A DNA stretch of 64,000 nt from Nitrosopumilaceae archaeon (GTDB lineage Archaea; Thermoproteota; Nitrososphaeria; Nitrososphaerales; Nitrosopumilaceae), in contig JAJEHG010000045.1 of NCBI GenBank assembly GCA_022823825.1, positions 23,721-87,720 on the forward strand, in the 5' to 3' direction. Shown here piece by piece: positions 285-63,452 of the stretch. Under the pieces are notes generated by a model that saw only the letters and a program-made list of their open reading frames with translations, searched no databases and had not been told where the DNA came from. Numbering within the stretch: the first letter of the stretch is position 1; each line of letters starts with the position of its first letter. Made by a program: the position numbers and the translations under genes.

Positions 285-1880
285 CTAGTGCCGCCTGAGC
301 CGCGGGTTTACTATGCTGTCCAGGGCGTTTCCTATAAACACAAACGCAAGCCCCGTTATCGCTATCATCACGCCGGGCGGCACCATCCACCACCACAGCC
401 CCCTCGCCGCGGCGCCAAACGTGTTTGCATCGTGCAGTATCTGCCCCCACGTGGGGAAGCTCGGGTCGCCCAGCCCCAGAAAGCTCAGGCCCGCCTCCGT
501 CGTGATGGCGGCCGGAACCGATATCGCTATGCTTGCAAACGCGTACGGCAGCAGCTGCGGGACTATGTGCCTTGTTATTATCTTGGAGCGGCTCTGGCCC
601 ATCGTCTCGGCCGCGTCCACGTATCCCCTGGTCTTTATCTGGAGCGACATGCTGCGCGCCACCTTTGCGACCCCGACCCACCCGAACATGGCGAGGAATC
701 CGACCATGAGCAGTATGCTGTTGCTGACCGTAACCGAGAGTATGATGAGAAACGGTAGCGCCGGCAGCGCGTATATCACGTCGTTGAACCTCATCATCGC
801 CTCGTCGGTCTTCTTGCCGCGATATCCCGCGTAGACTCCGTACAGGAGCCCCGCAACCACCGACGCCACGGCCACCGTGATTCCTATGAACAGGGCAAGC
901 GGCGTCCCCCACAGCAGCCCTATTGCAAGGTCTCGCCTCAGCTCGTCGGTGCCCATTATGCCAAAGGCCTTGCCGCCCACCACGAGCCGCGACTCGAGCA
1001 TGTCGAACCCCTCCAGGCTGGACACGGTTACGCGAAACGTGTACAGGCCCTGCAGCACGGAGCCGTCCGTAGCGTCCGAGAACAGCACGTCCTCGGTCGA
1101 CGCGCCCGACGTGTCGTACCTGTATATGGAGTGCGCCTGCATTGCAATGTTCTTCCGCATCGTGCTGTCCGTCGAGAACACGCGCTCCGAATGTACGGCC
1201 CCCCCGCCACCGGAGTCTGCCCGCCCCTCCGTACCTTCGCGGTCCGCTGCAAGGTACGGCAGGGCCTTTGAGAGCAGCAGGACTGTGCTTCCGTCGGGCC
1301 TGTCCACCGACGCCTCTAGGAGCGGGGATCCCGCGTACTCTGCCGAAAAGCTGTAGATAAAATCGCTTGGAAAGTCGTCGTACTCGTAGTCCACTGCGAA
1401 TTCGTGCGTGGTGGTAGCTACCGTGCCTGCGGCGCCGTCCACGGCCACGGCACGTTCTGACACTGCGGGGTCGTCAAGCATCATGTGCTCGGGTATCTTC
1501 TGTGGCAGCACGGCGTTGGTCCACGCGGGGACGGCGGCCTTTGGGTATGATATCCAGCTCTTCGGGTTGTTCCATTCCTGGAGGGTCTCGACGGGGATGA
1601 CGGCTATGGTGGCCACGGACGTAATTATCAGGGCCGCGAGTATTACGACGCCTGCAGCTCCCATGCGGCTTGATAATATCTCGCGCCATGTGTCGCGCAG
1701 CCCTCCCGCGTCAGCCGGCGCACGCGACGTACTTGGCTGCGGCCGGCGTGACGGCGACGTGGGGGACGGCCGCGGCCCCGGTGCTGGCGCAGGCGCCGCG
1801 TACTCTGCCCCTCTTTCTTTTGCATGCGGCCCCCCCTTTTCAGGGGGCCCCGCCGTCACGCCGCCACCCTCCGCGCTCAA
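285..1880 (-). CDS. ABC transporter permease, dipeptide/oligopeptide DppC/OppC type, with a large extracytoplasmic insertion after TM1
   Basis: C-terminal half carries the BPD_transp_1 EAA-type region (YVDAAETMGQSRSKIITRHIVPQLLPYAFASIAISVPAAITTEAGLSFLGLG). TTG start overlaps the upstream permease stop by 4 bp. Confidence 0.9.
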   Translation of the reverse strand: MSAEGGGVTAGPPEKGGPHAKERGAEYAAPAPAPGPRPSPTSPSRRPQPSTSRAPADAGGLRDTWREILSSRMGAAGVVILAALIITSVATIAVIPVETLQEWNNPKSWISYPKAAVPAWTNAVLPQKIPEHMMLDDPAVSERAVAVDGAAGTVATTTHEFAVDYEYDDFPSDFIYSFSAEYAGSPLLEASVDRPDGSTVLLLSKALPYLAADREGTEGRADSGGGGAVHSERVFSTDSTMRKNIAMQAHSIYRYDTSGASTEDVLFSDATDGSVLQGLYTFRVTVSSLEGFDMLESRLVVGGKAFGIMGTDELRRDLAIGLLWGTPLALFIGITVAVASVVAGLLYGVYAGYRGKKTDEAMMRFNDVIYALPALPFLIILSVTVSNSILLMVGFLAMFGWVGVAKVARSMSLQIKTRGYVDAAETMGQSRSKIITRHIVPQLLPYAFASIAISVPAAITTEAGLSFLGLGDPSFPTWGQILHDANTFGAAARGLWWWMVPPGVMIAITGLAFVFIGNALDSIVNPRLRRH

Positions 1881-2932
1881 CTCGACGTCCTCACCCGGGG
1901 ATCAAAGTAGCCGTACAGTATGTCTGCGGTAAATATGCTGGCAAGGAAGAATACCGTGAGCATGTACGTGGCCCCTATGATTACCGGCAGGTCCATTACC
2001 GTTATGGCCTCAAAGTAGAGCCGTCCCATGCCGGGCCAGTCAAACACGGCCTCCGTTATGATGGCGCCGCCAAGCGAGCCGGACAGGCTGAGGGCCAGTA
2101 TGGTGACTATGGGCGGGGCGGCATTCTTCAGGGCGTGCATGTATATGATCTTCTTGCGCCTTATGCCGATGGCCGTCTTTGCCGATATGAAATCCTCCTG
2201 CATTATACCTGCCATGAAGTTCCTGACAAGGTACGCCCACGCCCCGAACCCTATCAGCACTATGGTGATGAGGGGAAGCGTCATGTGGTACAGCAGGGCC
2301 GCGGCGTACCCCGGCTCGTCTGGCAGGATCTCCGGCGTCGCCCTTGCCGGAAACACCTGGTATGTGAATGCAAACAGGAATATCATGATCATTCCCACCC
2401 ACCACACCGGAAAGCTCGAGCTGACGACGGCAAAGCTGGAGGTCAGCTTGTCTATTGCGGAGCCCGTCCTGCTTCCCGCCAGGGCCCCTAGGAATATGCC
2501 CACGATGGAGATTACAACGGTGGCCGTTGTGAACAGGAGTATGGTCCTTGGGAGCTTCTCAAGTATTATCTCCCTGACGTCCGAGGAGCCCGAGTCGCTT
2601 GTGATGAAGGTGGCCTGCCCAAAGTCAAGCAGCATTATCTTGTACATTGTGATCCCTATGCGCTGCGGCGAGTACCACGGCTCGTCAAGCCCCAGCAGGG
2701 CCGTCCTGGCATCTATCTGCTCCTGCACGAACGCCTCAAACTCCTCCACTGACGTAAAGCTCTCCGCGGTGGCCGGGTTCTCCGTAATCTCGCTTCGCAC
2801 CTGAAACGCAATCCCCTGTTTCAGTATGCTGTCCATGTTGGAGCCCACGAGCGCGATCGTGATGAGCAGCGTTATCATCAGCACGCCGAACATGGTGGCA
2901 ACTCTGGTGGCGGCGTACTTCTTGAGGCCCAT
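1877..2932 (-). CDS. ABC transporter permease, dipeptide/oligopeptide DppB/OppB type
   Basis: MGLKKYAATRVATMFGVLMITLLITIALVG N-terminus, ARTALLGLDEPWY and EAVFDWPGMGRLYFEAI motifs; coupled to the DppC-like gene. Start chosen at internal Met. Confidence 0.88.
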   Translation of the reverse strand: MGLKKYAATRVATMFGVLMITLLITIALVGSNMDSILKQGIAFQVRSEITENPATAESFTSVEEFEAFVQEQIDARTALLGLDEPWYSPQRIGITMYKIMLLDFGQATFITSDSGSSDVREIILEKLPRTILLFTTATVVISIVGIFLGALAGSRTGSAIDKLTSSFAVVSSSFPVWWVGMIMIFLFAFTYQVFPARATPEILPDEPGYAAALLYHMTLPLITIVLIGFGAWAYLVRNFMAGIMQEDFISAKTAIGIRRKKIIYMHALKNAAPPIVTILALSLSGSLGGAIITEAVFDWPGMGRLYFEAITVMDLPVIIGATYMLTVFFLASIFTADILYGYFDPRVRTSS

Positions 2933-3217
2933 GCGCGCGGTGCGGCACCTGCATATAATAACAGTCTCGATTCGGAGGCGCCCGACGAGGGTGGCCTGAT
3001 CCTGGCGCGTCGGCCCCCCGGGGACCGGCATCCTGAGCTCATGCGCAGCCGGGCCGTTACAGGTCACGCCCCGGCCTGATCTTGCGCTTTGTCACAGGAG
3101 ACCAACGAAACTGCCACTATTCTGATCTCTTATCATGTGGCCTCGTCTTTGACGTACCTTTGGGAAGGCTGTTTTTGACATTAACTATTTTATACCTGAT
3201 AATCCGCTTCCCAACAA

Positions 3218-3706
3218 GTGTCGATGTTCAAGTCCTTGTTACGTCCGGGTACAACCCCCGTGTCGTCTGCCGTCACCGCGGTGGCGCTGATTGCACTTGT
3301 AGCGTGCCTTGCTCCCGCAGCAGATGCCCATGGCCAATCCCAACAGGGGCGTACACTGTATGATCAAAGCAGCATTGACTATCGGATCGGCGCAGAGGTG
3401 GACAGGATCCAGGCTCTGTACGCGGCGCAAGGGCAGGCCGCGTTTACCGCAATCACGTCTGCAGGATCGGCTGGCGCCGGCGCACCGGTCTCGTTCGTGG
3501 CGGATCTCAATACCCTGAGGATAGTGGCGCATAGTGCGGATGCCGGACAGGTGGGCCAGCGGGCGGACGCCTTGGAGGCGGCAGACAAGTCCATCAGCCA
3601 AATCCGTGCCGATCTGGCGCAAGATGGCCGGGTATGGATCACGTACATAGGCGAGAACCCCGCCAACCTAGAGGATCAGACAGCGCGCGCTGCTACACCT
3701 GCATGA
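3218..3706 (+). CDS. N-terminal part (signal peptide + first Cache-like unit) of a tandem Cache-domain exported protein; frame breaks near 3680
   Basis: Hydrophobic leader (AVTAVALIALVACLAPAADA) then GRVWITYIGENPANLEDQ; the expected continuation LHDGYIFAAGHYLPDTEVQ is read in another frame just downstream and leads into the 3756 ORF. Confidence 0.8.
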   Translation: MSMFKSLLRPGTTPVSSAVTAVALIALVACLAPAADAHGQSQQGRTLYDQSSIDYRIGAEVDRIQALYAAQGQAAFTAITSAGSAGAGAPVSFVADLNTLRIVAHSADAGQVGQRADALEAADKSISQIRADLAQDGRVWITYIGENPANLEDQTARAATPA

Positions 3707-3755
3707 CGGTTACATATTTGCCGCGGGGCACTACCTGCCAGACACTGAGGTCCAG

Positions 3756-6700
3756 ATGTTCATAGAGGAAAAGGTAAGGCAGTACGAGTCGCATGGTAAC
3801 GCGAGGGCCTTTTTTGACAGCATTACTCCTGATGATCCCGTCATTACTGACGAACTCTACCTGTTTGTGATAGACTACTCGTCTTGGATGCGGGTGGCCG
3901 ACGAGGTGGTGCCTAGCAGGGTGGGGCAGCCGGATGCCATCCTTGACACCTCCAGCAGGTCCGTCGCCGACGTCCGTGCGGATCTCGGGACAAACGAGGG
4001 CACGTGGGCGACATATACGTTCCACAACCCTGGCACCGACATGGGCCAGATCAAGCGCACCTGGCTATACCTGCACGACGGCTATGTGTTTGGCACCGGC
4101 TACTACCCAAGCGACTCCCGGGCGCAGGCACAGGCGGACTCGGCCAGAATCCTGTATACGGCCCATGGCACGGGCGCCTTTGGGATGATAACGCCGGATG
4201 CACCTGATCCGCGGTCAACAAAGTCGTCCTTTGTATTGGACGCGGCAACCTTCGAGGTGGCGGCCCACGCCAGGACGCCCAACCTGGTGGGAACCACCAG
4301 CACGCACCTTACCACGGCCGACAAACCCCTGTCGACCATCCGGGAGGAACTACGGGACGGCGGCGTCTGGATATGGCACATGGATCTAAACCCCGCAACC
4401 CAGACGAACCAGCTCACCCGTACCTACATCATATCGCATGGCGGTTACATATTTGGCGCAAGCTACTCGCTGCCGGACCTTCGGTCCCAGTCTGTGGTAG
4501 ACGGCGCCATCTATACGTACAGAAACGACCCCACAACCGCATTTGACCTGATTAATTCCGGAGCGCTCAACAGAATAGATCTCTATCCGCTGGTGAGAAG
4601 CAGCACGCACATACTTGCCCATGGCACGGTGCCTGGTCTAGTCGGACCGCTTCCAGATGTGGCACTGGCAATCGGCAGCTACGATTTGAGCGGCTTTGAG
4701 GATGGGGACTCGTACTGGTCGCAGTATTCGTTTTTTGACTCATATACCGGCATACACCAGATCAAGCGCGCCTGGGTTACCATTCACGACGGTTACGCCT
4801 TTGTATCCCCATATACTATTGCAGACGCCGACACCCAGTCGGTGACCGATTATGCCCGGTTTATCTACGAGTCCAACCGTGAGAACGACGCGTGGGTGGA
4901 CATCATCACGCCTGACGAACCCGTCGTGACTGACGACCTGTACCCGTTCGTTATAGACGCGGCAACCTGGACGAGGCTGGCCGACGGCGTCGTGCCAGCC
5001 AGGGTGGGGCAGTCTGAAACCATTCTGGACACCTCCGGCAGGTCAGTCGCCGACGTCCTTGCAGATCTTGAGCAGAACGGCAGAACGTGGCTGACGTACA
5101 CGTTCCACAACCCTGCCACCGGCGTGGAGCAGCTCAAACGCACCTACCTCCAGATGCGCGACGGGCTGGTCTTTGGTTCCGGCTACTACCTGCTGGACTC
5201 CCAGGTGCAGGGCATAGCGTATGCCAACATACTGGAATACGACAACCAGGGCAGGAATGCTGCCATTGCCCTCATAAACACCGTCCCCGAGGAGCCGACT
5301 TCCACGTACGGCTTTGTAGTCGACCCGCAGACCGGAAGCACGCTGGCGCAGAACGTGGACCCCGGCCTGATAGGCAGTACAACCGACTGGAGTGCCATTC
5401 TCCAAGTGCTCTCCGCGCAGGACATCCTGGATGAGCTGGGCCGCGAGCCGGGCATGTGGGTCAGCTACACGCATACGGAGCCGATAACAGGCCAAGAAGA
5501 GGCAAAGCGCACGTGGCTTGTCCGGCATGCGAGCGGCCTGATATTTGGATCGGGGTACTATTCATCCAACATACCAGAGGCCGACGTCAAGTTTGCCGTG
5601 AGCAACGCAATACGCGTCTACGAGGCCAACAAGGCCAACGACGCGTGGGTGGACATAATCACGCCTGACGCGCCAATCACCACCGACGCCCTGTACCCGT
5701 TCGTGATAGACGCGGCAACTTGGACGAGGCTGGCCGACGGCGTCGTGCCCGCCAGGGTGGGGCAGCCTGAAACCATTCTGGACACCTCCAGCAGGTCCGT
5801 CGCCGACGTCCTTGCAGAGCTCGAACGGGAGGGCAGCCTGTGGGTCACGTACACGTTCCACAACCCGGCCACGGGCATAGAACAGATCAAGCGCAGCTAC
5901 CTTGAGCTGCACGACGGGCTGGTCTTTGGCTCCGGCTATTATACACTGGACTCCCAGGTACAGTCTACATTGCACGGCCGCATACTGTTGTATGAGCGCG
6001 ACGGGCTGAGCGCGGCCCTCGCCTCGATAAACACCATCCCGCCCGAACCGTTCACCTCGTATGCTTTTGTAGTCGACCCGCAGTCCGGAAGCACGCTGGC
6101 GCAGAACGTGGACCCCCGCCTGATAGGCGGCACGCCCGACTGGGATGCCATCACGTCCGTACTCTCAGCGCAGTATGTGGTGGACAAAATAAGCCGCGGA
6201 GCCGGCACGTGGGTCGCCTACACGCACACGAACCCCGTGACCGGCCAGGAGGAGATCAAGCACGCATGGCTGGTCTTGCATCGGGGCCTGGTATTCGGGG
6301 TGGGGCATTATTCGTCTGACATACCAGAGTCCGACGTCAAGTTTGCCGTGAGCAACGCAATACGCGTCTACGAGGCCAACAAGGCCAACGACGCGTGGGT
6401 GGACATAATCACGCCTGACGCTCCGATAGCTACCGACGCCCTGTACCCGTTCGTGATCGACGCGGCAACCTGGACGAGGCTGGCCGACGGCGTCGTGCCC
6501 GCCAGGGTGGGGCAGCCTGAAACCATTCTGGACACCTCCGGCAGGTCCGTCGCCGACGTCCTTGCAGAGCTCGAACGGGAGGGCAGCCTATGGATCACGT
6601 ACATCTTCCACAACCCGGCCACGGACGTGGAACAGATCAAGCGCAGCTACCTCCAACTGCGCGACGGGCTGGTCTTTGGCTCCGGCTATTATACGGTGGA

Positions 6701-7133
6701 CTCTAGCGTGCAGTCGAAAGTGTACGGCAACATACTGCAGTACCAGCGCGACGGGCAGAGCGCGGCCCTGGCCTCTATAAACACAGTCCCGCCTGCGCCG
6801 GTCTCCACGTACGGCTTTGTAGTCGACCCGCAGACCGGAAGCACGCTGGCGCAGAGCGTTGATCCGGGCCTGATAGGCGGCACGCCCGACTGGGATGCCA
6901 TTGTCGAGGCGCTTCCGGCGCAGGACATAATGGATAAAACAAGCCGCGGAGTCGGCACGTGGGTCGACTACACACAGACGAACCCCGTGACCGGACAGGA
7001 GGAGATTAAGCGCGCGTGGCTTGTCATGCACGACGGCCTGGTGTTTGGGTCTGGATACTATTTGTCTGACATACTCGTCCCGGGCGGCGTCCTGCCCTCC
7101 GTGGATCCGCCAGCGCGTTATTGCCGCGGCTGA
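3756..7133 (+). CDS. Tandem Cache-like domain protein (nine further units), continuation of 3218-3706
   Basis: Nine recurrences of the pattern W-x2-Y-x5-P-x-T-(G)-x4-K-(R)-x-(W/Y)-x6-G-(Y/L)-x-F-G-x-G-Y-Y, e.g. GRTWLTYTFHNPATGVEQLKRTYLQMRDGLVFGSGYY. Confidence 0.85.
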   Translation: MFIEEKVRQYESHGNARAFFDSITPDDPVITDELYLFVIDYSSWMRVADEVVPSRVGQPDAILDTSSRSVADVRADLGTNEGTWATYTFHNPGTDMGQIKRTWLYLHDGYVFGTGYYPSDSRAQAQADSARILYTAHGTGAFGMITPDAPDPRSTKSSFVLDAATFEVAAHARTPNLVGTTSTHLTTADKPLSTIREELRDGGVWIWHMDLNPATQTNQLTRTYIISHGGYIFGASYSLPDLRSQSVVDGAIYTYRNDPTTAFDLINSGALNRIDLYPLVRSSTHILAHGTVPGLVGPLPDVALAIGSYDLSGFEDGDSYWSQYSFFDSYTGIHQIKRAWVTIHDGYAFVSPYTIADADTQSVTDYARFIYESNRENDAWVDIITPDEPVVTDDLYPFVIDAATWTRLADGVVPARVGQSETILDTSGRSVADVLADLEQNGRTWLTYTFHNPATGVEQLKRTYLQMRDGLVFGSGYYLLDSQVQGIAYANILEYDNQGRNAAIALINTVPEEPTSTYGFVVDPQTGSTLAQNVDPGLIGSTTDWSAILQVLSAQDILDELGREPGMWVSYTHTEPITGQEEAKRTWLVRHASGLIFGSGYYSSNIPEADVKFAVSNAIRVYEANKANDAWVDIITPDAPITTDALYPFVIDAATWTRLADGVVPARVGQPETILDTSSRSVADVLAELEREGSLWVTYTFHNPATGIEQIKRSYLELHDGLVFGSGYYTLDSQVQSTLHGRILLYERDGLSAALASINTIPPEPFTSYAFVVDPQSGSTLAQNVDPRLIGGTPDWDAITSVLSAQYVVDKISRGAGTWVAYTHTNPVTGQEEIKHAWLVLHRGLVFGVGHYSSDIPESDVKFAVSNAIRVYEANKANDAWVDIITPDAPIATDALYPFVIDAATWTRLADGVVPARVGQPETILDTSGRSVADVLAELEREGSLWITYIFHNPATDVEQIKRSYLQLRDGLVFGSGYYTVDSSVQSKVYGNILQYQRDGQSAALASINTVPPAPVSTYGFVVDPQTGSTLAQSVDPGLIGGTPDWDAIVEALPAQDIMDKTSRGVGTWVDYTQTNPVTGQEEIKRAWLVMHDGLVFGSGYYLSDILVPGGVLPSVDPPARYCRG
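4840..7080 (+). repeat. In-frame tandem modules of about 750 bp, each encoding two alternating Cache-like units
   Basis: The segment containing 'acgcgtgggtggaca' recurs at 4889, 5641 and 6391 (spacing 753 and 750). 'ccgacgtcaagtttgccgtgagcaacgcaatacgcgtctacgaggccaacaaggccaacgacgcgtgggtggacataatcacgcctgacg' occurs at 5581 and 6331. Confidence 0.9.
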
Positions 7134-10629: not shown

Positions 10630-12816
10630 ATGAATTACCTTTTCGTCATTGCCGCAATATCTGCGATTCCTCTTCTAGTGACGGGCTCAGGCCCAAGCTC
10701 ATTGACTGAGGCTTTTGGCGCAAACAACGACATATGCGGGCTGCAGCTCTGCTCGGAGATCGAGGGCGGCCGCGACGCGTGGGTTGCGGCGCAGGCCGAC
10801 GAGTCGGACGAGGACGCCCCGGACGTGGATATTGCAGGCGTCACCTTGCCCCTTCACAAGGGGTACTATGACGGCCAGGCCGCGTACTACATCATAACGG
10901 AGGCAAGCGAACGCGTGCATGCCGACGTGATCACCCAGGCCCAGGGGTGGATCGTCGAGCACGTGCCGTCCCTGGCATCGGTCCCGGAGGACGTGCGCTC
11001 TGTCACATACATGTTTACAAACGGCGTGCGCGGCGACGGCGTGCACGGGTTCCAGAGCGAGGTCTTCACATCGGTCCCGGGACAGGGCGACTATTCGCCG
11101 CTGGCCGGACACGTGCACGTGACATGGCACGAGGGCGTGCTTCCAAAGATATTGATGTCCGAGAGCGACATATTGTCGGCCGCCGAGGCGGGTGACGTGG
11201 AGCTGACTGATCTTGACGTCGTGATTAACATGCCGCGGTTCACAATGTCGCCTGTACAGTCGGAGATGCTGGACAGGGCGCCTGAAAAGGTACTGAGAGT
11301 GCCGCTTCACTATGGGTTTTACGACGGACAAAAGGTGTACAACGTGATACTGGAATCCAGCGACAAGACGCACTCCGATCTGGTGTCGAGGCTGCAGGGG
11401 CTTGACTCTGTGCACGTACCAATGCTTGCAGACACCGATGCCGCCTCCGTCTCAAAGGTGTACTTCTTTACAAACGGCATAGAGGGGCCCGGCGTGCACG
11501 GATACCAGAGGCAGGTGTTTACGGCGGCCCCGGGCGACGAGGTGTACAGTCCGCTTTCCACGCATTTGCACGTGACGTGGACCAACGACGCGGATCCGCG
11601 ACTCTTGACGTCAGAGAGCTCCATTATGGCCGCAGAGGAGTCCGGCGACGTGATTCTGACTGAGATTCCCATTGTAATCAACATGCCGCTGTTGTCGCTT
11701 GACGCAAGCCAGATTATGGATCTTCCAAAGAACTTTGCACCCTTCGACGCCGTGATGGACTCCATGATGCAAGAGGAAGAAGAGGGAATGATGGCGCAAG
11801 AGGAAGAGGGAATGATGGCGCAAGAAGAGACTGCGATGGAAGAGCCACAAGAGATGAAACTGAGGCTCTCGAGGGCCAATGTTGCCGTAGACATCCCGCT
11901 GCACAAGGGATACTATGAGGGAAATGATGTGTATTATGTCATCACCGACACTAACAACGAGATCCATGCCGGCATAATCACCGAACTCCAGGACTGGAGG
12001 GTCGAGATGGCGCCCTTCCTTGGGAACGCCCCCGACGCGGCGCTCTCTACGACATACATGTTTACAAACGGGGTCGAGGGAGACGGCATACACGGATTCC
12101 AGAACCAGGTGTTTACAAGCACCCCTGAGCAGGCCGATGCGTACAGCGCGCTTGCAGCCCAGATGCATGTGACGTGGGCCGACTCGGCCGCCCCGCGCAT
12201 ACTTGACTCGGAGGCCGCCATAATGGAGGCCGCCGACGCCGGCGAGGTATCGCTTGACGACATCGGCGTGGTGATCAACATGCCGCACATCGTATGGCCG
12301 GGCGGGCAGATGATGGTAAAGGAGGACACGTCCGTAGACGACGAGACGCCGTATGGAGGGGGGCAGGTACTTGGAATCGACACCGAGGAGATGACCGTAA
12401 CGTTTGTCGCCCACCGGGGATGGGGCCCTGACGGGCGTACCATATACTATATCGTAACAGACGCCACGCCGAGCGGGCCTGCCAACATGATGGGGGTCGT
12501 CTCTGCAGATACCTCTGCCGCGCTCATTGCAAACTCTGCCGCAGTCGACCTGTACCAGTTTGCAAACGGCATTGCCGGCTCCGGACCTCTGGGATTCCAA
12601 CCTGGCATTGCAAGCTCCGCTCTTGGTGATGCGGGATATTCGCCCATGTGGCGCATCTACATCATATCGTGGAATGATCCCGCAGATGCAAGCCTGCTTG
12701 AGACAATAGGCGACATCCAGGCATACCTGGAGGAGGGGCTGATAACTGTCAGCCTAGCCCGCCCGATGGACAGCGATCACATTGTCAACTGCCCGTTTAT
12801 TGATCCGTTCCAGTAA
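10630..12816 (+). CDS. Exported protein with four tandem copies of a ~150-aa domain (DUF7482-like)
   Basis: Signal peptide (MNYLFVIAAISAIPLLVTGSG); repeats (P)LHKGYYxGxxxYYIITxxxxxxHAxxIxxxQxW...TYMFTNGVxGDGxHGFQxxVFTSxP...HVTW...VVINMP four times, the last copy divergent. DUF name recalled from memory, unverified. Confidence 0.85.
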   Translation: MNYLFVIAAISAIPLLVTGSGPSSLTEAFGANNDICGLQLCSEIEGGRDAWVAAQADESDEDAPDVDIAGVTLPLHKGYYDGQAAYYIITEASERVHADVITQAQGWIVEHVPSLASVPEDVRSVTYMFTNGVRGDGVHGFQSEVFTSVPGQGDYSPLAGHVHVTWHEGVLPKILMSESDILSAAEAGDVELTDLDVVINMPRFTMSPVQSEMLDRAPEKVLRVPLHYGFYDGQKVYNVILESSDKTHSDLVSRLQGLDSVHVPMLADTDAASVSKVYFFTNGIEGPGVHGYQRQVFTAAPGDEVYSPLSTHLHVTWTNDADPRLLTSESSIMAAEESGDVILTEIPIVINMPLLSLDASQIMDLPKNFAPFDAVMDSMMQEEEEGMMAQEEEGMMAQEETAMEEPQEMKLRLSRANVAVDIPLHKGYYEGNDVYYVITDTNNEIHAGIITELQDWRVEMAPFLGNAPDAALSTTYMFTNGVEGDGIHGFQNQVFTSTPEQADAYSALAAQMHVTWADSAAPRILDSEAAIMEAADAGEVSLDDIGVVINMPHIVWPGGQMMVKEDTSVDDETPYGGGQVLGIDTEEMTVTFVAHRGWGPDGRTIYYIVTDATPSGPANMMGVVSADTSAALIANSAAVDLYQFANGIAGSGPLGFQPGIASSALGDAGYSPMWRIYIISWNDPADASLLETIGDIQAYLEEGLITVSLARPMDSDHIVNCPFIDPFQ
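11770..11840 (+). repeat. Short in-frame tandem repeat encoding EEEEGMMAQEEEGMMAQEE
   Basis: 'gaagagggaatgatggcgcaagag' duplicated in tandem between repeat domains 2 and 3. Confidence 0.85.
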
Positions 12817-51956: not shown

Positions 51957-54656
51957 ATGAAAAAATTTACCATATCACTTTTAACAGTTTTGGCAGTGAT
52001 GACGGCCGGCGCAATGTCCGGCGCAGTGCACGCGGACGAATCGACTACGCTTCTCCCACCTGCAAAGCAGGTCGAGGCAGGCGTTGCGCCTGAAGACGTC
52101 ACGTGCGAAGGAGAGAAAGTCCTGCTACTCAGGACCGATGGCAGCCCTAACTGCCTGAATCCGGCGTCGGTTGAGAGGTTTGTCTCGCTTGGGATTGCGA
52201 CAATAGTCGAGAAAGAGGACATGGAGATGACAATGGAGGATGAGACCGTCGAGGAGGCCGACGAAATGGAAATGGAAGGCATGCAGGAGCCCGAACTCGT
52301 TGTATCCATGCTGGCATTCAACGACCGATTTGCGGCAATGGATGATGCGGCAGTGTCCGTCGTTAATGCAGACGTAGAGCTGTACAAAGAGCACGGCGAG
52401 GCCCTGCTGGAGATGGTAAACGCACGCGCAGAGACGTACGTGCCTGGAGATCCGCACATATTCATAATTGACTTTGACGAACTGGTGCTGGTGGCCAACG
52501 GGGCCGAGACTGAGAACATAGGCTGGGACGAGGCCCCCATACTTGAGAGCGGGGGATGGTCCGTCGCCAGCATAAAGGCTGCCCTGGAATCGGAGGGAAG
52601 CATATGGCTGATGTACATGTTCCCAGACCACGAAACCGGGGTTGAAAAGGCCTCTAGATCATACTTTGTACTGCACGACGGCCTCATGTTTGGCAGCGGA
52701 TACCTGCTGAGTGATCTGGAAAGGGACATGATGGCCGCAATGTGGGTGGCCAACTCGGCAGCCGAACTGTACGATGAGCATGGCGCGGACGCGTTTGGCA
52801 TGATAACCGACCAGGATGTCACGTATATTGGCGGGGCGGACAGCTCAGAACACAGCGCAGAATTGCTGGGCATGATGACTGTCGAGGCGGCAGGCTACGC
52901 CACAACCGACCTGTACCCGTTCGTCCTGGATATTGATACATCCACGGTGGTGGCTCACGGGGCTGACCCGGACCACATCGGAGCCACGTCGGTAGCGCTA
53001 ACAGAGTCCAACAAGGATGCAGGCCGGATAGTAGCCGAGTCTGAGATGAACGGCGGCACATGGATCACGTACGAGTTCACCAACTTTGAGACCGGCGAGA
53101 TAGAGACAAAGCTCTCGTGGGTTACTATACGCGACGGTTACCTGTTCGGATCCGGGCTCTACCCCGACGAGTTCCAGACGAAAAAGATCAACGCCATCAT
53201 GTCTACTGACAACGCCCTTGCAATGTACGCCGAGAGCGGACAGGACGCCTTTGTCGAGATCACGGCCCTCAACGTCGAGGACGAGTGGTATCCGTTTGTA
53301 ATGGACTCAGAGACACTCACAGAGGTTGCAGACGGCTCCATACTCGACCGGACCGGTCAGAAGATATGGGAGCAGTACCAGATGAGCGCGGCCGTCCGAG
53401 ACTCCTGGGACGCGTTTGACGCGGGACAAGGGGTGTTTGGAAAGTACGTGTTCTTGAACCCTGAGACCGGAGAGCAACAGGCCAAAAAGGCATGGTTCAT
53501 CAAGCACGACGGCTACATATTTGGAGCAGGGATCTACCTGACTGGCGAGTACGCCGATAAGACGGAGGTCAAGTGGTCCGTGGGCACCGCGGTCGAGATG
53601 TACAAGGCGCTTGGAATGGACGCGACGTTTGCGGCCGTAGACGCGATGAGTACGGACTATCCGTCGTACCCGTTCGTGCTTGACGGCGCGCTTGATATCG
53701 TGTCGCACGGTTCAAACACGGACATCATTGGACAAAACCTGTTTGATGTAACCTCTCCGGACAAGGACGCGGAGCAGATAATGGAGGAGCTGCAGGGAGA
53801 CGGGGACAAGTCGTGGATAGCCTATACGTTTTTGAACCCGGAGACCGGCGAGGATGCCAAGAAGGTTACGCTGCTTGAGATGCACGACGGCTACATATTC
53901 GGGGCCGGATACTATGTAGAGTCCGCGGCAGGAGTCTCGTTTGACGACGCAGAGCAGGCCTGGCTTGAGGATAACCAGGTCATAACGGTCGCGTACGATC
54001 CCGCATGGCCCCCGTACGAGTATGCAGATGACGAGGGAAACCTTGCAGGGGTGTCCGGAGCCATTGCGTCCATGCTTGAGGACATGACAGGCTCCCAGTT
54101 CGCCGAGGCAGAGCCCGCAATCACATCCTGGAACGATGCGCTCGACCGCATGGAAGACGGAACGGCCGACGTGCTGTTTGTGGTCGAGAACACCGCAGAG
54201 AGGGACGAGTACATGGACTTTACGGAGCCGTGGATAACGATACCAATCTCGATAATCACCCTTGGGGATAATGCAGACGCTATAACGTCCGAGAACCTTG
54301 CAGACTACAATGTGGTGACGGTGGACGGCTATGCCGTGGAGACATGGCTGGATGAAAGCATGCCTACCGTGGAATACGAGTCGGCCGCCTCCGCAGAGGA
54401 TGCGCTGAAAATGATATCGGACGGCAGCGCCGACGCCTTTTTGGACGTATGGGGTGTCGCAAGCCACATTGCAGCCAACAGCGGCATTGAGAACCTGGCA
54501 GAGGCCGGCACGATTGCAGACGAATACTCGCTGTCGATAGGGTATACGCAGGGCGACGACACGCTTGGCAGCATACTGCAAAAGGCGCTTGACGCCATAC
54601 CCCCGGGCGAGATTGAGCGCATCGTAAGCGAGGCCGTCGCAGAGGGCACCGGGTAA
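51957..54656 (+). CDS. Exported protein: four Cache-like units fused to a C-terminal SBP_bac_3-type solute-binding domain
   Basis: Signal MKKFTISLLTVLAVMTAGAMSGAVHA; four Cache-type motifs (e.g. GGTWITYEFTNFETGEIETKLSWVTIRDGYLFGSGLY); C-terminal VITVAYDPAWPPYEYADDEGNLAGVSGAIASMLEDMTG...ADVLFVVENTAERDEYMDFTEPW. Confidence 0.9.
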   Translation: MKKFTISLLTVLAVMTAGAMSGAVHADESTTLLPPAKQVEAGVAPEDVTCEGEKVLLLRTDGSPNCLNPASVERFVSLGIATIVEKEDMEMTMEDETVEEADEMEMEGMQEPELVVSMLAFNDRFAAMDDAAVSVVNADVELYKEHGEALLEMVNARAETYVPGDPHIFIIDFDELVLVANGAETENIGWDEAPILESGGWSVASIKAALESEGSIWLMYMFPDHETGVEKASRSYFVLHDGLMFGSGYLLSDLERDMMAAMWVANSAAELYDEHGADAFGMITDQDVTYIGGADSSEHSAELLGMMTVEAAGYATTDLYPFVLDIDTSTVVAHGADPDHIGATSVALTESNKDAGRIVAESEMNGGTWITYEFTNFETGEIETKLSWVTIRDGYLFGSGLYPDEFQTKKINAIMSTDNALAMYAESGQDAFVEITALNVEDEWYPFVMDSETLTEVADGSILDRTGQKIWEQYQMSAAVRDSWDAFDAGQGVFGKYVFLNPETGEQQAKKAWFIKHDGYIFGAGIYLTGEYADKTEVKWSVGTAVEMYKALGMDATFAAVDAMSTDYPSYPFVLDGALDIVSHGSNTDIIGQNLFDVTSPDKDAEQIMEELQGDGDKSWIAYTFLNPETGEDAKKVTLLEMHDGYIFGAGYYVESAAGVSFDDAEQAWLEDNQVITVAYDPAWPPYEYADDEGNLAGVSGAIASMLEDMTGSQFAEAEPAITSWNDALDRMEDGTADVLFVVENTAERDEYMDFTEPWITIPISIITLGDNADAITSENLADYNVVTVDGYAVETWLDESMPTVEYESAASAEDALKMISDGSADAFLDVWGVASHIAANSGIENLAEAGTIADEYSLSIGYTQGDDTLGSILQKALDAIPPGEIERIVSEAVAEGTG

Positions 54657-59533: not shown

Positions 59534-60328
<795 letters not shown>

Positions 60329-60329
60329 A

Positions 60330-61091
60330 CTACTCACCCAAGTACGACTCCACGACCCTGGGATCCTTCGTGACCTCGTCTGGATCGTCCTCCGCGATGA
60401 TCTTGCCCCTGTTGAGTACAAAGACGCGCTCCGCATACTGCAGCGAGATGTCCAGCCTATGCTCGATTATCAGAAACGTGATCTTTTGCTCCCTGCAGAT
60501 CCTCTTGATCCTCTCAAAGATCTCGTGCGCCAGGGTGGGGTTCACGCCGGCAATGGGCTCGTCCATCAGGATCATCTTGGTGTCTGCCATCATGGCCCTG
60601 CCGAGCTCCAGCAGCTTCTGCTGTCCGCCGCTGAGGTTCCTGCTCCAGACGACCCCCTGCCCTGTCAGGCTCACCATCTCCATGATCTCCGAAGACTTGT
60701 CCGCCACCTTCTCCTCGTCGTGCCTCCATCTCGACCTTGTCGGGGCCGCAAGAAATCCCTCGCCGCGGTTTTTGTCGCTTGACACCAAAAAGTTCTCCTC
60801 CGTCGTAAGGTTCCTAAACGGCTGCGGTATCTGCCACGTCCTAACCAGCCCCGTCTTGAAGGTATCAAACAGCCCCTTCTGCGTGATGTCGGTCCCATCA
60901 AATGTGACGCTGCCCGCGTCCGGCTTCAGGAGCCCGGAGATCACGTTTATCAGCGTGGTCTTGCCGCTTCCGTTGGGTCCGATCATCTGGTATATCCTGC
61001 CTGCCTCCATCCCCATGTCGATCCCATCAAGCACAACCATGCCGCCGAATTGTTTCCTGATGCCGGAGAGCGACAGGATCGTTGCCATCAC
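60330..61091 (-). CDS. livG: Branched-chain amino acid-type ABC transporter ATPase (LivG-like)
   Basis: MIGPNGSGKTTLINVISGLLKPDAGSVTFDGTDIT...RTWQIPQPFRNLTTEENF...LSGGQQKLLELGRAMMADTKMILMDEPIAGVNP. Confidence 0.94.
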   Translation of the reverse strand: MMATILSLSGIRKQFGGMVVLDGIDMGMEAGRIYQMIGPNGSGKTTLINVISGLLKPDAGSVTFDGTDITQKGLFDTFKTGLVRTWQIPQPFRNLTTEENFLVSSDKNRGEGFLAAPTRSRWRHDEEKVADKSSEIMEMVSLTGQGVVWSRNLSGGQQKLLELGRAMMADTKMILMDEPIAGVNPTLAHEIFERIKRICREQKITFLIIEHRLDISLQYAERVFVLNRGKIIAEDDPDEVTKDPRVVESYLGE

Positions 61092-61450: not shown

Positions 61451-62389
61451 TTGGCCCTCGATCCCATATTCTCTGATGCCGTCATATTTGCAAGCCTCCT
61501 GTCACTCCTGAGCATAGGCCTGACGCTCACGTACCTCACCACGCGCGTCCCGAACTTTGCGCACGCCTCCTTTGCCACGATCGGCGTCTACATGGCGCTG
61601 GTCGCGACCCACATCTGGGGGGCCACCCCGTACGTCTCGATCCCGGTCGCGTTTGTGGCATCCGGGCTGGTCGCCGTCTCCCTGTACGTCTTCATACTAA
61701 AGCCCCTGATACGAAAGGGGGCCTCACAGGCGATCCTGATGATCGCCACGCTTGCCTTTGACCTGATACTGATTGCGGGACTGAACATCTTTGCGGACTT
61801 TGTGGTACAGACGTTCAGGATCGCATCAAGGGAGTTCACGCTGCGCAGCTACGATGCCGAACTGGCGGGCCTTCCGATGATAGTCTTCGTGGCGCCCGCC
61901 GCCATAATCGTCCTGTCACTGACGTTGTACATAGTGCTAAAGAAGACAAAGTTCGGCATCGCGATGCGGGCCGCCACCGAGAACCAGGACCTCTCAGAGA
62001 CCGTGGGGATCAACGTAAAGCGGATCTACGTAGTCTCCTGGATGCTGGGAGGCGGGCTTGCAGGGGTGGCGGGCGCGCTCATGGCCCTGTGGTTCCAGGG
62101 GGATCCGAATCTGGGCCCGCTGATGATCCCAAGCATCTTTGCCGCCAGCATCGCGGGAGGCTTTCTGAGCATTTACGGGGCGATTGCAGGGGGTTTGCTG
62201 CTCGGGTTTACGGAGGTTCTGGGGACCAGGTTTCTTGCCGGCGAGTTCGGCTCATGGCTCATCGCGTACCGCCCGCTCATCCCGCTTGCGTTCATCGTGG
62301 TGACCCTGATGCTGGCGCCCCGGGGGATGGCCGGGATTAACTGGTCGTGGCTGGAGAGGAGAGTGAGGAGACATGGTTCTGGAGACTGA
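61451..62389 (+). CDS. livH: Branched-chain amino acid-type ABC permease (LivH-like)
   Basis: LLSIGLTLTYLTTRVPNFAHASFATIGVYMAL...GIAMRAATENQDLSETVGINVKRIYVVSWMLGGGLAGVAGAL; TTG start. Confidence 0.93.
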   Translation: MALDPIFSDAVIFASLLSLLSIGLTLTYLTTRVPNFAHASFATIGVYMALVATHIWGATPYVSIPVAFVASGLVAVSLYVFILKPLIRKGASQAILMIATLAFDLILIAGLNIFADFVVQTFRIASREFTLRSYDAELAGLPMIVFVAPAAIIVLSLTLYIVLKKTKFGIAMRAATENQDLSETVGINVKRIYVVSWMLGGGLAGVAGALMALWFQGDPNLGPLMIPSIFAASIAGGFLSIYGAIAGGLLLGFTEVLGTRFLAGEFGSWLIAYRPLIPLAFIVVTLMLAPRGMAGINWSWLERRVRRHGSGD

Positions 62390-63452
62390 GGCCATATTCC
62401 TCATAGACCTGCTTGCGATATTCGCGATCTACGTGATCGTCAATCTGAGCCTGAACATGGAGTTCGGATATACGGGGATCCCGAACTTTGGCAAGGTGCT
62501 GGCAGTCGGGGCGGGGGCGTTCGTCGCCGCGTCGATCCCCGGCAGGATATTTGCAGCCATGGCGGGCATCGAGGGGGATTACGTACTTGACAACCTCGCC
62601 ATCGTCTCCCAGGTCAACGCGTGGCTGGTGGACAACACGGGAATCGGGTTTGTCATCTTCTTCCTGACGCTGGGAATGGCGGCCGCCGTGGGAGGGGGGC
62701 TGGGAATCCTCACGTCATATCCTGCGATACGCATGCGCGGCGACTACCTTGCCATCACGCTGCTGGCATTCGGCGAGAGCATCCGCATAATCGGAAACAA
62801 CTTCACGCCGCTCGCGGGCGGGACGCTGGGGGTCCAGCTGCCGGACCCGCTGTCCTTCCTGCCTGACGAGATCCGCTTCTCGGTGGCCACGCTGGGACTG
62901 ATCCTCATTACGGCTGCCGTCTTTGTCTTCAGCGAGAAGATGGTCCGCTCGCCGCTTGGGAGGCTGCTCAGGGCCGTCCGCGACAACGAGGTCGCCGCGG
63001 AGTCTCTGGGAAAGGACACGGCGCGGATCAGGATGAAGGTGATAATGATCTCGGCCGCGCTCGCCGCGGTGGGCGGCGCGCTGTACGCATTCTACGTGGG
63101 CGGGGCCATTGCGTTTGCGTACGACAGGGCGAGCTGGACGTTCTGGCCCTTCCTCATGATTCTGATTGGCGGGCTTGCAAACAACAAGGGGGTCCTGTTC
63201 GGCACGCTGATCTTCGTCACCGTCCGAAAGCTCATCATCTTCTTCAAGGACTCCTTTGAGGGACTGGTCCCCTTTGACATCATCTGGCTTGACTTTCTGC
63301 TGCTGGGCGTGATACTGCTGGCTATACTGCTGTACCGCCCGCAGGGACTGTTCGTGGAAAAGCCTACCGCGACAGTCGGGGGCGGTGCTGGACGCGCCGG
63401 AAAGGGGCGGGGCGGGGCGGGAAGAAGGCTGTTTAATCTTCTCTTCAGGTAG
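62373..63452 (+). CDS. livM: Branched-chain amino acid-type ABC permease (LivM-like)
   Basis: YVIVNLSLNMEFGYTGIPNFGKVLAVGAGAFVAA...GRLLRAVRDNEVAAESLGKDTARIRMKVIMISAALAAVGGALYAFYVG. Confidence 0.93.
   Translation: MVLETEAIFLIDLLAIFAIYVIVNLSLNMEFGYTGIPNFGKVLAVGAGAFVAASIPGRIFAAMAGIEGDYVLDNLAIVSQVNAWLVDNTGIGFVIFFLTLGMAAAVGGGLGILTSYPAIRMRGDYLAITLLAFGESIRIIGNNFTPLAGGTLGVQLPDPLSFLPDEIRFSVATLGLILITAAVFVFSEKMVRSPLGRLLRAVRDNEVAAESLGKDTARIRMKVIMISAALAAVGGALYAFYVGGAIAFAYDRASWTFWPFLMILIGGLANNKGVLFGTLIFVTVRKLIIFFKDSFEGLVPFDIIWLDFLLLGVILLAILLYRPQGLFVEKPTATVGGGAGRAGKGRGGAGRRLFNLLFR

Follow-up and report, generated by a model that had tools for sequence, protein, structure and literature searches.

The window, a stretch of 64,000 nucleotides from a Nitrosopumilaceae-like, ammonia-oxidising archaeon, contains a single unbroken open reading frame (positions 51957–54656, forward strand) that encodes a protein of 899 residues, which we designate the Cache-SBP protein. 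From the N- to the C-terminus, this protein includes a signal peptide, a WING-49 module, an acidic Met-rich linker, 4 Cache units, and an SBP_bac_3 domain. The gene is directly preceded by an HMGL/homocitrate-synthase-like gene and directly followed by an Hjc-like gene. The host assembly consists of 1.70 Mb in 68 contigs and is 89.6% complete, a completeness at which gene absences are not absolute, and its nearest named relative is the Thaumarchaeota MAG RHO2_bin_25 (RHO2). The archaeon is probably a sponge symbiont; this putative habitat fits the GC content of the genome (60.4%), as raised GC has been reported for sponge symbionts (PMC7848895). The original prediction, which placed 4 Cache units and an SBP_bac_3 domain in one exported polypeptide, was borne out by Pfam matches above the cut-offs, by HMM-delimited units, and by the single leader.

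The Sec-type signal peptide (MKKFTISLLTVLAVMTAGAMSGAVHA, residues 1–26; positions 51957..52034, forward strand) was identified by direct reading and a hydropathy scan, and its predicted cleavage site follows AVHA. In the hydropathy scan of all 899 residues, strongly hydrophobic 19-mers were confined to residues 1–27 and no membrane-spanning segment was found after the leader, as had been expected from the first reading of the sequence. The signal peptide lacks a lipobox cysteine. The protein has only 2 cysteine residues, Cys50 and Cys66, and both are located within the WING-49 module (residues 35–82; 52059..52202, forward strand), which matched NCBIfam NF058652 with an E-value of 9.1e-12 (44.9 bits compared with a cut-off of 22). 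The suggestion that the N-terminal segment is a separate small module proved correct: among 200 genomes of the phylum, WING-49 was found in 27, all within the family of the window genome, where a single genome can hold as many as 28 copies, and a search of 14 control genomes gave no match. We would guess that WING-49 serves as a surface docking module.

WING-49 is followed by the acidic, Met-rich linker (EKEDMEMTMEDETVEEADEMEMEGMQEPE...; 52203..52337, forward strand; direct reading). The corresponding position is filled by Met/Glu repeats in the WING-49 and SBP proteins of genomes G359 and G447. In one protein of G447 (L114, 3535–6606), WING-49 is followed by approximately 20 MMEGE repeats and 3 SBP domains, a composition that suggests possible metal binding by the Met/Glu linker. 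A similar acidic, Met-rich linker is present in another exported-looking protein of the window (10630–12816), which contains 4 DUF7482 repeats (E-value 1.2e-163).

Pfam assigned the Cache part of the protein to dCache_2 (PF08269; E-value 9.1e-16, 58.3 bits compared with a cut-off of 26.5) and sCache_2 (PF17200; E-value 7.1e-11, 42.7 bits compared with a cut-off of 25). The 4 Cache units, all on the forward strand, were delimited by an HMM made from the repeats themselves: (i) unit 1 (residues 128–252; 52338..52712) is strongly diverged, with 31–33% identity to its positional counterparts and a very long tree branch, and because of this divergence its pocket may be lost; (ii) unit 2 (residues 259–404; 52731..53168) has an insertion of approximately 24 residues that is absent from its relatives in the alignments; (iii) unit 3 (residues 410–529; 53184..53543) is 88% identical to its RHO2 counterpart; and (iv) unit 4 (residues 535–655; 53559..53921) was additionally modeled and has a confident Cache fold (pLDDT 92.6). 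A full-length model from 2 sequences was poor (pLDDT 43) and was not used. The best PDB folds for unit 4 were the chemoreceptor (MCP) Cache domains 4exo and 2qhk (Foldseek E-value 4e-7), and the fold matches included the carboxylic-acid Cache 5g4y and the urea-binding TlpB. When the Cache part was searched against PDB sequences, neither the sequence by itself nor a profile gave a match, whereas the fold search with unit 4 did. A fold search of viral structures returned nothing at an E-value of 0.001 or below, and viral contigs yielded no relative. On the basis of the 5g4y fold and a weak match of the protein to the MctS kinase, our guess is that the Cache ligands are small carboxylates.

The C-terminal domain (residues 661–895; 53937..54641, forward strand) is a solute-binding domain of the sensor Venus-flytrap subtype, as indicated by Pfam, PDB matches, and alignments. 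Its proposed membership of SBP_bac_3 was confirmed by a match to PF00497 over residues 676–889 (E-value 2.5e-16, 60.1 bits compared with a cut-off of 26.4), which covered positions 1–125 of the 132-position profile. The closest PDB sequences are the EAL-domain protein 7ejg (1e-26) and the sensor kinases BvgS (4e-25) and EvgS (5e-18), and importer SBPs score far below them; the EvgS model matched the Cache-SBP protein at 5.9e-14, below the EvgS whole-protein cut-off. These nearest solved relatives share the SBP subtype, but the window protein lacks their TM helix, PAS, kinase, EAL, or any other output part. In the tree, 14 archaeal SBP domains form one clade (99/99) apart from 7ejg and the VFT2 domain of BvgS, the only 2 outgroups. 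Arg749 (in the motif TAER) is retained in most of the archaeal domains. By contrast, Val831 occupies a position at which 7ejg and the VFT1 domain of BvgS have Asp, and none of the 14 archaeal domains has Asp there. We take this to be the position at which, in LAO-type SBPs, Asp anchors the α-amino group. Because the archaeal domains lack this Asp, their binding may differ or be lost, and a classical α-amino acid would be a less likely ligand of the SBP domain.

Among the extracellular sensor domains of prokaryotes, Cache is the most common, and it is described as able to reach an output domain solely by way of a C-terminal TM helix (PMC4822843). The Cache-SBP protein shares the Cache fold with the sCache and dCache chemoreceptors and histidine kinases (4exo/2qhk, 5g4y, and MctS); unlike those receptors, in which Cache lies between 2 TM helices and is joined to an output domain (PMC4822843), it has 4 tandem units and no TM segment or output domain. 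Anchor-less Caches fall outside the training set of the published Cache models, because these were built only from proteins with an output domain and 2 TM helices (PMC4822843). No output domain was found by Pfam in the Cache-SBP protein and no MCPsignal domain in its own genome, which agrees with the earlier proposal that the arrangement serves ligand capture rather than transmembrane signalling. The PAAT permease model TIGR01726 (HEQRo-type) had no match over its cut-off in any of 61 genomes (the window genome and 60 relatives; G416, G359, G447, G533, and G600 lay outside this search), whereas the control was positive in 11 of 14 genomes; only 2 of the 61 contain SBP_bac_3. Without a TM segment, an output domain, or a PAAT permease, the protein is therefore not a standard receptor and, within the scope of these searches, not the SBP of a PAAT importer either. 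Signalling might still be indirect if the protein were a soluble co-receptor that docks, once loaded with ligand, on a membrane sensor, as LuxP does on LuxQ and ChvE on VirA. The closeness of the SBP domain to sensor Venus flytraps and the prevalence of Cache among sensors accord with such a role, but the lack of MCPsignal in the genome and of a sensor gene adjoining the Cache-SBP gene make it improbable.

The claim that no permease or ATPase lies next to the gene held for its immediate neighbours but not for the wider region, in which a complete Liv-type ABC set begins 4.9 kb downstream. This set includes 2 ATPases (59534–61091, reverse strand) and 2 permeases (61451–63452, forward strand). 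Opp-type permeases are encoded at 285–3067 (reverse strand), beside another Cache array of the window (about 3218–7133), and 5 ABC permease domains that belong to PF00528 are encoded in the genome. The Cache-SBP protein could thus be imagined as the binding protein of an ABC importer that uses the Liv-type or the Opp-type permeases, and a Liv transporter is present in sponge Thaumarchaeota (PMC7848895). We give this a very slim chance, given that (i) the SBP_bac_3 domain is mismatched to the Liv and Opp families; (ii) the Liv genes and the Cache-SBP gene do not form one operon; (iii) a LivK-like protein, identified by eye, is encoded on contig C63 of the same genome; (iv) no PAAT permease was found; and (v) the SBP domain is replaced by NMT1 in a RHO2 paralog (L112). 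Liv permeases normally pair with type I SBPs, which have a fold other than that of SBP_bac_3.

We lean towards reading the Cache-SBP protein as a modular, membrane-free, non-signalling protein for extracellular ligand capture or recognition, with a putative ligand and role. It would be exported and would act outside the membrane, in the pseudo-periplasm or S-layer zone, where its Cache and SBP units may bind small solutes, and such binding would permit the capture or recognition of molecules at the cell surface. In that case, it would serve to scavenge, present, or recognise molecules and would be neither a transmembrane sensor nor a dedicated PAAT importer SBP.

The search for the same architecture in other genomes revealed the full form in RHO2, whose ortholog (L051) has the signal peptide, WING-49, 4 Caches, and the SBP domain and is 68% identical to the window protein; contig G533:C2 carries the same gene as L051. 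In genome G030, WING-49 and 4 intact Caches are followed by a stop after the fourth Cache, and the SBP domain is reduced to remnants. Because this SBP domain decayed while the Caches persisted, at least one lineage can do without it. The gene pair downstream is conserved in the window genome, RHO2, and G030. The RHO2 paralog L112 resembles the window protein in its leader, WING-49, and 4 positionally matching Caches but differs in its terminus, which is an NMT1/THI5-type domain (PF09084, E-value 4.5e-48) instead of SBP_bac_3. In these 4 proteins, Cache units 2–4 cluster strictly by position in the tree (100/97, 100/100, and 99/92), and the positional grouping of unit 1 has a support of 93/82. 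Therefore, the four-Cache chassis predates the divergence of the terminal domains, and the grouping of units 2–4 of L112 with those of the window protein indicates that a single chassis has exchanged its terminal binding domain. The NMT1 protein of the window genome stands alone, without Cache units and with a hydrophobic N-terminus. This NMT1-type protein (L142, contig C63) is 76% identical to the NMT1 domain fused to 4 Caches in RHO2, and its neighbours are the LivK-like protein and a transposase-like ORF.

Other Nitrosopumilaceae proteins combine WING-49 and SBP_bac_3 without Cache units, with 1 SBP domain in G416 and G359, 2 in G600, and 3 in G447. They resemble the window protein in being exported, in having WING-49 and often a Met-rich linker, and in the placement of their SBP domains in the same clade (99/99), but differ in having 1–3 SBP domains and no Caches. 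An SBP tandem is also present on contig C37 of the window genome (L021, 4181–5743, reverse strand); this exported array, composed of a C-terminal SBP half, a full SBP domain, and an N-terminal half, is a truncated or collapsed repeat array. Three ORFs of the window genome share a C-terminal "-CR*", which was considered as the end of a mobile element and rejected since the DNA differs. Another exported archaeal polypeptide with multiple binding domains is known from Ca. Nitrosospongia ianthellae, in which one gene has 3 LivK domains (PMC6790972); that gene differs in its LivK family, its lack of Cache units, and its position adjoining a livK gene.

Sliding-window and per-domain dS comparison with RHO2 revealed a mosaic junction at approximately residues 391–420 (53127..53216, forward strand). 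The dS values range from approximately 1 to saturation up to codon 400 and from 0.2 to 0.5 after approximately codon 410, as far as codon 895; the downstream flanking genes, with dS values of 0.20 and 0.24, are near the level of the 3′ part, and the gene upstream of the locus also differs from RHO2. No dS step near codon 400 was seen between G030 and RHO2. The 5′ half was also considered as a copy from the RHO2 NMT1 paralog; this was rejected because dS is saturated there too. The simple reading of the mosaic is recombination, and a chimeric join in the multi-contig assembly could also be its source.

Between the window protein and its RHO2 ortholog, the dN/dS ratio is approximately 0.27 for the SBP domain and 0.15 for Cache unit 3. 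This purifying selection argues for a kept function of both domains and bears on 2 further explanations. In the first, the protein is displayed at the surface in variable form, where it serves to recognise the host, to adhere, or to avoid being digested, with fast-recombining exposed modules and only secondary ligand binding. The mosaic gene with its sharp dS step, the varying unit number and terminal domain of the relatives, the decayed SBP in G030, and the few genomes matched by the Cache-SBP part (16 of 250 in the family) are consistent with such a protein, and some Thaumarchaeota associated with sponges are enriched in Cache domains, which have been proposed there as candidates for surface and host recognition (PMC7848895). 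However, apart from the selection on the SBP domain and Cache unit 3, none of the domains in the protein is known for adhesion, a chimeric assembly could account for the mosaic, and the sponge habitat is itself putative; we therefore consider this explanation unlikely. In the second, the domains are degenerate, ligand-free folds that act as structural spacers of an S-layer-like acidic protein. The pI of the Cache-SBP protein (4.05) lies within the range of 3.4–4.08 reported for acidic S-layer proteins of ammonia-oxidising archaea (PMC6790972), and the divergence of Cache unit 1 is in keeping with degeneration; the same purifying selection and the residues that are invariant across the 14 archaeal SBP domains render this quite improbable.

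An extension of the capture or recognition reading, which we offer tentatively and consider rather doubtful, is a recombining chassis in which WING-49 and 4 Caches swap the terminal domain (SBP_bac_3, NMT1, or none) and the N-terminal half. Such exchange may make extracellular ligand recognition specific to each lineage, with no membrane signalling and perhaps with adaptation to a sponge host. The domains of the Cache-SBP protein are known and its architecture is a new variant; a literature search for secreted Cache arrays or Cache and SBP fusions, outside which most subscription papers fell, found none. In the present organism, in which no MCP domains were detected, Cache units are exported in arrays that have no membrane anchor and are linked to binding domains that can be exchanged. 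Should ligand binding be demonstrated, Cache and SBP modules would serve jointly as capture or recognition devices. These proteins are also named candidates, amenable to expression, for the means by which ammonia-oxidising archaea encounter solutes or surfaces within their host.

The Cache array at about 3218–7133 had been suggested to belong to one functional family with the Cache-SBP protein. This was not upheld, as the units average 30% identity and those of the array fall in clades other than those of the Cache-SBP protein, 2 of which are well supported (100/95 and 99/100). In this array, the leader and the first unit are in one frame to approximately position 3700 and the rest is in another, so that near 3690 there is either a frameshift or an error in the sequence. 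Genome G599 encodes Cache arrays without SBP domains (L119, L120, and L121) with up to 11 units, and in both the window array and those of G599 the units alternate between 2 types, a pattern that would fit a repeat block made of a double-Cache pair. In genomes G473 and G470, a single Cache is combined with Kazal and plastocyanin-type copper (cupredoxin) domains (L125, 3569–5791, and L126, 2419–4557), and these proteins are another non-signalling use of Cache within the family.
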